Assembly: GCA_029288615.1 (NCBI GenBank)
Contig: JARIGV010000003.1
Location: 65,068 to 106,687 of the forward strand
Direction of reading: 5' to 3'
Source of the DNA: Candidatus Tayloriibacteriota bacterium
GTDB taxonomy: Bacteria; Patescibacteriota; Minisyncoccia; Phycocordibacterales; CAIRYW01
DNA length: 41,620 bases
A program made the translations under genes and the position numbers. This document shows, piece after piece, positions 39,400-41,620 of this stretch (position 1 is its first letter; every line of letters starts with the position of its first letter). The notes beneath the pieces are model-generated. The model did no database searches, had not been told where the DNA came from, and was given only the letters and a program-made list of their open reading frames with translations.

Positions 39400-41037
39400 T
39401 TATTTATTTCTCGTAGAGGCTTGGATGAAAGCAGAAAAAAGTGGATGTGGAGAAAGTGGACGCGCTTTAAATTCTGGATGGAATTGTGTACCAAGGAAAA
39501 ATGGATGCTCTTTTTGTGAAAGTTCTGCAATTTCCATAAGGCGGCCATCTGGTGAAGTTCCTGAAAAGATGAGCCCGGCGTTTTCAATATCTTTTATATA
39601 TTCACCTGAAACTTCATAGCGATGTCGATGTCTTTCATATACTTCATCGGCTCCGTATGCTTTTCGAGCAATCGTTCCAGATTTTAGTTTTGCAGGATAC
39701 GCACCAAGTCGCATTGAGCCACCAAAGTCTTTATTTTGAAGCTTCACCTTCTGATCTGGCATAATATCGATCACAAGATGTTTTGATTTCTCTGTGATTT
39801 CAGATGTTGTTGCATCTTTCCACCCAAGAACATTGCGAGCATATTCGATAACAAGAAGCTGCATACCGTAGCAAAGTCCAAAGTATGGAATCTTATTCTC
39901 ACGAGCGAATTTGATCACAGCGAGTTTTCCTTCGATTCCCTTTTCACCGAAACCTCCCGGCACAACGATACCGTCGAATGATTTAAGATCTTTAAGTTTT
40001 TCAGCATCTTTCTCAAAATCTTTTGACGAAAGCCATGTAAAGCGAGGTTTGAAACCTTCGTGATATGCAGATACTTTGAGGGCTTCAATGACTGAAAGAT
40101 ATGCATCCGAAAGAACGAAGTCGCCGCTATCAAAATATTTTCCAACAACAGCGATATTTACTTCTTTATTTGTATTTTTTACTTTCTCTGCAAAACTTTT
40201 CCACTTTGTAAGATTGATCTGAGTTTTCTTCATTCCAAGCAGCTTCAAGACGAGTTCTGAAAGTTTATCTTTTTCAAAGTTGAGTGGAATATCATAAATA
40301 CTTGCAACATCAGGTGCAGAAATAACATGATCAGCACGCACTGAACATGACACAGCAATTTTTTCTTTTCGCTTTGCATCCATTGGCACTTCAGAACGTG
40401 CGATGAGAATATCAGTATTTACGCCATAAGAATTGAGCTGACGAATAGCATTCTGTGTCGGCTTTGATTTCATCTCACCAAGTTTTCCTGGAACCGGAAG
40501 ATACGACACCATGATAAAAAGCACGTCGTCTGGTTTTTGAATTTTGAGAACACGAGCAGCTTCGATGAACATAATGTTCTGATAATCACCCACCGTTCCT
40601 CCAATCTCAATCACTGACACATCTGAGTTTGCTTTGTCTGCCGCAGTTTCAAGTCGATCAATAATTTCATTGCGAATATCTGGAATAGCTTCTACTGTCT
40701 GTCCACCGTAGCCAAGCGCTCGCTCGCGGTCGATCACAGTTTTGTAGACCATTCCTGATGTCATATAACAGCGCGAAGAAATATCACGATCAAGAAAACG
40801 TTCATAGTTTCCCATATCCTGATCTGTCTCAAGTCCTGAATCGAGTACAAATACTTCTCCGTGTTCTGTTGGATTCATCGTTCCTGCATCAACATTGAGA
40901 TATGGATCGATTTTGACGATGTTGACTCGAAATCCTCGCTGCTGAAGAAGCATTCCGAGTGATGATGTCGTCACTCCTTTTCCCACTCCAGACATCACAC
41001 CACCGATAACGAAGATATATTTGTGCGCTTTTTTCAT
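39400..41037 (-). CDS. pyrG: CTP synthase
   Basis: 545 residues, the usual length. Amidates UTP to CTP with Gln and ATP. N-terminal synthetase domain: GGVMSGVGKGVTTSSLG, DPYLNVDAGTMNP, ERALGYGGQTVEAIPD. C-terminal class-I glutaminase: GGFGEKGIEGK, GLCYGMQLLVIEYARN with the nucleophile Cys, and HPEFKARP with His and Glu. It is one of the few core biosynthetic genes in the window. A TAGAAT about 30 nt upstream is the likely -10, so it has a short leader without a Shine-Dalgarno sequence. Confidence 0.97.
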   Translation of the reverse strand: MKKAHKYIFVIGGVMSGVGKGVTTSSLGMLLQQRGFRVNIVKIDPYLNVDAGTMNPTEHGEVFVLDSGLETDQDMGNYERFLDRDISSRCYMTSGMVYKTVIDRERALGYGGQTVEAIPDIRNEIIDRLETAADKANSDVSVIEIGGTVGDYQNIMFIEAARVLKIQKPDDVLFIMVSYLPVPGKLGEMKSKPTQNAIRQLNSYGVNTDILIARSEVPMDAKRKEKIAVSCSVRADHVISAPDVASIYDIPLNFEKDKLSELVLKLLGMKKTQINLTKWKSFAEKVKNTNKEVNIAVVGKYFDSGDFVLSDAYLSVIEALKVSAYHEGFKPRFTWLSSKDFEKDAEKLKDLKSFDGIVVPGGFGEKGIEGKLAVIKFARENKIPYFGLCYGMQLLVIEYARNVLGWKDATTSEITEKSKHLVIDIMPDQKVKLQNKDFGGSMRLGAYPAKLKSGTIARKAYGADEVYERHRHRYEVSGEYIKDIENAGLIFSGTSPDGRLMEIAELSQKEHPFFLGTQFHPEFKARPLSPHPLFSAFIQASTRNK

Positions 41038-41106
41038 TCCGAGAATTTGTTAAAAGTTATTCACCTATTCTATAGGAAAACCTTGTGCAAAGCCATTTTT
41101 CTATAA

Positions 41107-41135
41107 TTGACATTTTGTGTCAAAAGTGGTACCAT
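41107..41135 (+). promoter_or_regulatory. Promoter of the 41272 gene with inverted repeat on the -35
   Basis: TTGACA (41107-41112), 17-nt spacer, TACCAT (41130-41135). TTGACA and TGTCAA (41118-41123) are inverted around TTTTG, a possible operator. The leader is about 130 nt. Confidence 0.65.
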
Positions 41136-41174
41136 TTATTCTCAAAGGTTCTTCGAGAGAACAACTAGAACTCG

Positions 41175-41258
41175 GCTGCGGATATAAAGACTTTTTTTAT
41201 AAAAATCCTTGTATCCGCAGCTCAAAAAAACCTAAACCACAGCAATCGAGCGGCGGAT
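41175..41258 (+). promoter_or_regulatory. Candidate switch hairpin in the 5' leader
   Basis: GCTGCGGATA (41175-41184) pairs with TATCCGCAGC (41212-41221). GAGCGGCGGAT (41248-41258), just before the Shine-Dalgarno sequence, copies the 5' arm in 10 of 11 positions of GAGC(T)GCGGAT and could compete for the same 3' arm. Confidence 0.5.
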
Positions 41259-41260
41259 TG

Positions 41261-41266
41261 AAAGGA
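41261..41266 (+). promoter_or_regulatory. Shine-Dalgarno sequence AAAGGA
   Basis: AAAGGA lies 5 nt before ATG 41272. One of the few clear ribosome binding sites in the window. Confidence 0.7.
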
Positions 41267-41271
41267 ATCCC

Positions 41272-41520
41272 ATGAAACTAATCCTACTCTTGGTTTTCGC
41301 GGTCCCGTCGATAATTATCGGTGGGCTCGGCAAATATCAAAACACTGAGAGTCGCCGTCTCGAACAGGAGAAACAACGGGCAGCTCAATTCGAGCAACTC
41401 GAACGCGACAACCGCGCTCTGCGCGCCATGGTTCGCGAGACCTCACCAGAAAATCCCACCGTCATCCTTGGTGAACGTCAGACATTCCCCATCGCTGTCG
41501 AGTGGTCGTACACGTTCTAG
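41272..41520 (+). CDS. Small membrane-anchored coiled-coil protein
   Basis: 82 residues. N-terminal hydrophobic segment at about 3-18, then a Glu/Gln/Arg-rich heptad region (residues 27-55: LEQEKQRAAQFEQLERDNRALRA) that should form a coiled coil, and a short C-terminal tail. GC-rich relative to neighbours. It has a promoter with an inverted repeat, a long structured leader, a real Shine-Dalgarno sequence and a 16-bp terminator. Function unknown. Confidence 0.75.
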   Translation: MKLILLLVFAVPSIIIGGLGKYQNTESRRLEQEKQRAAQFEQLERDNRALRAMVRETSPENPTVILGERQTFPIAVEWSYTF

Positions 41521-41539
41521 AAATTATCTCGCAACTTCA

Positions 41540-41584
41540 CACGCCTCTGGAAATCCCCCGATTTCCAGAGGCGTGAGTGTTTTA
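41540..41584 (+). terminator. Strong intrinsic terminator
   Basis: A perfect 16-bp stem (CACGCCTCTGGAAATC with its complement, CCCC loop, 41540-41575) followed by AGTGTTTTA. Confidence 0.88.
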
Positions 41585-41620
41585 TATATTAAAACTAAAA
41601 ACGAAAACTGCCCGGCCGCC

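Follow-up and report, generated by a model that had tools for sequence, protein, structure and literature searches.

Translational attenuators of the ermC type, and riboswitches that sequester the Shine-Dalgarno (SD) sequence, act by masking the ribosome-binding site (RBS); 5' stabiliser hairpins of the ompA and ermC type are likewise known in bacterial mRNAs; and autonomous cassettes of the 'moron' type carry a promoter and a terminator of their own and have a foreign composition. The window analysed here, a stretch of 41,620 nucleotides, forms the right end of contig C25 (65068-106687 of 106687) in a genome of 788 kb (38 contigs, 98.8% complete), whose size and gene content suggest a member of the Patescibacteria/CPR. 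A small gene that starts at 41272, divergent from pyrG (39400-41037, minus strand), can be compared with each of these systems.

With the ermC-type attenuators and SD-sequestering riboswitches the leader of this gene has in common three segments that pair in mutually exclusive ways, one pairing covering an SD-like motif; it differs from them in having neither a leader peptide nor a recognised aptamer, in the unequal stability of its two states, in its lack of phylogenetic support, and in that the 16S rRNAs of relatives carry no anti-SD. With the ompA and ermC stabilisers it shares a strong hairpin near the 5' end, a start site that is open in the dominant fold, and an A-rich single-stranded stretch between the two. 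Unlike in those stabilisers, some 32 nt, which hold one smaller hairpin, lie between the promoter and the main hairpin, and the 3' arm has a latent complementarity to the RBS; a stabilising role would be assigned here only by analogy. As in 'moron' cassettes, promoter, ORF and terminator form a unit, lying where relatives have a short gap, but neither a phage or plasmid context nor a homologue was found here. On balance we slightly favour the view that the locus is a foreign, self-contained cassette, the hairpin being a constitutive and static 5' structure.

Organisation of the locus

A consensus scan (10/12 matches) places a putative sigma-70-type promoter, TTGACA-17-TACCAT with TG before the -10 hexamer, at 41107-41135 on the plus strand. 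The leader would accordingly be about 130 nt long (41142-41271, plus strand), as measured from the predicted transcription start to the ATG. The palindrome TTGACATTTTGTGTCAA (41107-41123) surrounds the -35 hexamer and offers it to each strand; the minus-strand -10 that would partner it is weak (AAAAAT). The ORF (41272-41520, plus strand) has 82 codons and specifies a hydrophobic N-terminal segment and then a charged, coiled-coil-like helix. It is followed by the intrinsic terminator of the cassette, with a perfect stem of 16 bp (41540-41575, plus strand), recovered both by terminator scan and by inverted-repeat search, and by half of a perfect palindromic terminator (41604-41620, no strand assigned), at which the contig ends. 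All background figures given below are drawn from contig C25 only. A further inverted repeat, 41154-41171 with 41514-41531, was set aside, being estimated at about chance level for a region of 583 bases.

The leader hairpin and its competing segment

RNAfold predicts a small hairpin, GUUCUUCGAGAGAAC, at 41148-41162 and a main hairpin spanning 41174-41222, both on the plus strand, with an A run directly 3' of the latter. The arms of the main hairpin lie at 41174-41192 and 41203-41222, both being also recovered by inverted-repeat search. The 10-bp stem on which the sequence-only reading had been built, GCTGCGGATA (41175-41184) with TATCCGCAGC (41212-41221), is present where it was described, and the full stem exceeds it, with 21-nt arms (41175-41195/41201-41221) that are 86% complementary. 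Computed against shuffles, the leader folds with z = -4.0, and the energy of the 66-nt stretch around the hairpin, -24.4 kcal/mol, was equalled by only 14 of 3000 random 66-mers from the contig.

It had also been claimed that a segment just ahead of the SD-like motif can pair with the 3' arm of this stem, and GAGCGGCGGAT (41248-41258) does complement 41213-41223 in 10 of 11 positions. The alternative pairing is longer than first described, comprising 15 bp between 41206-41223 and 41248-41266: UCCUU (41206-41210) with AAGGA (41262-41266), AUCCGC (41213-41218) with GCGGAU (41253-41258), and GCUC (41220-41223) with GAGC (41248-41251). Most of the 3' arm thus doubles as a latent anti-RBS strand (41206-41223), and the SD-like AAAGGA (41261-41266, plus strand) falls mostly inside the competing segment GAGCGGCGGAUUGAAAGGA (41248-41266, plus strand), its AAGGA being covered by the duplex. 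The computed energy of that duplex, -23.8 kcal/mol, nearly equals the -24.2 kcal/mol of the native pair of arms.

Complementarity in 10 of 11 positions arose by chance in 13 of 4000 shuffles (about 0.3%) and in 83 of 20000 random 48-mers from the contig. Shuffling the RBS region yielded the duplex energy in 0-6 of 5000 cases; it was reached in 23-52 of 2500 shuffles when the whole 5' leader was allowed as partner, and in 1.6% of random 130-mers, and the gene ranks third among 120 gene starts on the contig by this measure. The complementarity is therefore mildly to moderately unusual, roughly at the 0.1-2% level, for a feature that was chosen post hoc. A purely incidental hairpin leaves unexplained why complementarity better than chance should extend as far as the SD-like motif.

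Stability of the two states

The sequence-only reading had proposed a two-state leader, in which the RBS is open while the arms of the hairpin are paired and is captured otherwise. What stands of this is that the mutually exclusive pairings exist, somewhat beyond chance, and cover the SD-like motif. By computation, the start region can be opened for 1.3 kcal/mol whether the hairpin is present or masked, and for 7.8 kcal/mol when the 5' arm is absent and the 3' arm set free. A working switch does not follow. Fold prediction for the leader went against it, giving the hairpin as dominant and the alternative pairs an ensemble probability of 1e-4 or less, and forcing the leader into the alternative costs 7.4 kcal/mol at 37 C. 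The hairpin is, moreover, complete at about 41221, when transcription still has some 27 nt to go before it reaches the competitor (41248). Since the hairpin is favoured by 7.4 kcal/mol, only a factor contributing over 7 kcal/mol could drive a switch, and nothing able to supply this was found in the leader, where an aptamer, a leader peptide, an upstream competitor for the 5' arm and a terminator were all sought.

Particular classes of regulator were assessed on separate grounds. The two states are not comparably stable, as a riboswitch would have them, and no meaningful Rfam match was obtained for 40900-41620 at E up to 10, the sub-threshold matches being mostly to microRNA models that score the shape of the hairpin. 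An aptamer would have only about 32 nt and one small hairpin at its disposal between the promoter and the main hairpin, though one of an undescribed type may be present. An RNA thermometer is rejected, as no crossover to the alternative ground state occurs from 10 to 70 C and the opening cost stays at 1.1-2.8 kcal/mol over this range. A transcription attenuator finds no counterpart either: the hairpin is followed by a run of A, and 41540-41575 is the only terminator detected by the scan. For a translational attenuator of the erm/cat type, 41142-41200, read by eye, has no ATG, GTG or TTG frame over the 5' arm, and the sole short frame in the leader, again read by eye, is a TTG frame near 41208 that has no SD.

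A genuine two-state leader would require that a protein, RNA or ligand mask or displace the 5' arm, upon which the 3' arm would capture 41248-41266 and translation would stop. The near-equal duplex energies, the better-than-chance complementarity reaching the SD-like motif, and the rise in opening cost upon release of the 3' arm are what such a mechanism would lead one to expect; yet the hairpin is ahead both in energy and in order of folding, searches for an aptamer, a leader peptide and an Rfam family found none, there is no homologue in which conservation could be seen, and the anti-SD is absent from the 16S rRNAs of relatives in the order. We regard this mechanism as rather unlikely. The two-state reading is not supported by the evidence, and that the leader houses a true switch seems to us improbable.

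A static structure is instead the reading that we hold to be likeliest, with a little more than even confidence. A cassette comprising promoter, leader, membrane/coiled-coil ORF and terminator would have entered the gap between ftsX and pyrG in a single lineage, and one dominant hairpin would fold constitutively during transcription of its leader. The start region would then stay open, at the same cost of about 1.3 kcal/mol as if there were no hairpin, and occlusion by the 3' arm would depend on loss or masking of the 5' arm. By these figures the 5' arm neutralises a potentially harmful 3' arm, and the complete hairpin has no net effect on the start site. By analogy with known stabilisers, the hairpin would most likely be a static 5' structure serving mRNA stability or spacing, its resemblance to the RBS being incidental, or at most reflecting a latent anti-RBS strand that is kept locked.

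Initiation of translation in the host order

The gene had been singled out as exceptional in having both an SD and a long leader, and it is indeed unusual: SD 4-mers occur at only 9 of 121 gene starts on the contig, against 10.3% of internal ATGs, so that there is no enrichment. An SD motif was likewise found at only 2 of 43 pyrG and ftsX starts, nearly all in relatives. The nine 16S 3' ends examined, from eight relatives in the order (L086-L095), have no CCUCC anti-SD; they read GGAAGCTGCTCGTGGAATATTTCA and variants, with tails such as GUGGAAUAUUUCAA, and the canonical 16S tail had no match in 60 genomes. The source genome's own 16S gene is cut by a contig end, and we infer from the relatives that the anti-SD is missing there too. 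Published work describes the loss of CCUCC in some CPR lineages, namely Campbellbacteria, Wolfebacteria, Absconditabacteria and Peribacter (PMC10783764).

Among the gene starts of contig C25, TATAAT-like -10 boxes cluster 4-11 nt before the ATG (36 sites; the other bins hold 5-19). This is the spacing of leaderless mRNAs, and it points to their widespread use. In this order the anti-SD seems to be gone and leaderless starts seem to be in use. A variant SD, UUGAAA, which would match the UUUCAA tail of the relatives' 16S rRNA, was considered and rejected, as TTGAAA is present in 0 of 103 start regions.

Given that relatives have no anti-SD and that SD motifs are not enriched, capture of the SD is unsafe as a mechanism here, and the SD-like motif of this gene may be a relic or a chance occurrence. 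For leaders in such genomes, readings that invoke RBS capture should be preceded by inspection of the 16S 3' end. That the leader gates the start site of a small membrane protein of recent acquisition, through structure alone and with no SD pairing involved, we judge a slim prospect; if true, a structure-only switch would sit in a bacterium without anti-SD initiation, whose mRNAs are mostly leaderless. A working switch at this locus would be notable, and the evidence falls short of it.

The ORF and searches for homologues

No homologous leader was found in 60 relatives, in the family, or in the genome and viral collections searched. Scans with the stem pattern returned three loci in the genome collection and six in the viral collection, all of them from other sources, and the count from the genome scan was close to that estimated for chance. 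No homologue of the protein was found, matches to known protein families being insignificant; nor was there an orthologue in the 60 relatives, where matches of the tblastn type were weak and lay inside long frames. With no homologue detected for the leader or for the protein, covariation has no basis here.

The ORF is probably real, since none of the 680 shuffles that stayed open (from 20000 that preserved composition) matched the hydrophobicity of its N-terminus. That the transcript might instead be a structured non-coding RNA with a fortuitous ORF, as its GC-rich structure in an AT-rich genome and a modest coding score of 0.037 bits per codon would allow, appears very improbable, given those 82 open codons with their unequalled hydrophobic N-terminus, and given that no Rfam family was recognised.

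The GC3 of the ORF (0.60, where the contig median is 0.33), its own promoter and terminator, and the lack of a homologue together suggest that the cassette is foreign. The same composition, together with the weak score against host codon usage, the absence of an orthologue among relatives, and the disuse of the SD on the contig and in relatives, would also suit a domesticated or decaying import from an SD-using donor, whose leader has no role and whose ORF is perhaps poorly translated. Promoter, reading frame and terminator are nevertheless all intact, the composition may have another cause, and no donor emerged from the homologue searches, so that such decay strikes us as unlikely.

A probable insertion in the ftsX-pyrG gap

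The genes ftsX and pyrG are colinear in relatives, and the distance separating them is mostly 5-235 bp. In the source genome ftsX begins another contig, C34, and a perfect terminator palindrome, AAAACTGCCCGGCCGCC/GGCGGCCGGGCAGTTTT, is split into halves between the end of C25 (41604-41620) and the start of C34 (L030:1-28). Together with synteny, this split palindrome indicates that the two contigs are adjacent and that the assembly broke at the hairpin. Taken with the short gap in relatives, this putative join identifies the promoter-leader-ORF-terminator unit as an insertion.

Such a setting invites the thought that the leader hairpin belongs to the DNA level, as an element or scar such as the end of a mobile element or a recombination site, and is transcribed by accident. 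It is a long near-palindrome, and in the related genome described below the gap holds a gene enclosed by inverted repeats; however, the arm has no further exact copy in the genome, and a repeat search found neither flanking duplication nor terminal repeats around the insert in the window. We consider this origin doubtful, and prefer the static leader structure of an imported cassette.

In genome G002, of the same family, the insert in the ftsX-pyrG gap (L079:440-960) is of another kind, namely a 23S_rRNA_IVP four-helix-bundle gene (PF05635, E 1.8e-31). This gene lies outside any rRNA gene and is flanked by 26-nt inverted repeats that are 96% complementary. The presence of two different inserts in one family means that the gap has been hit by insertion at least twice, the locus in the window being one of these two distinct events.
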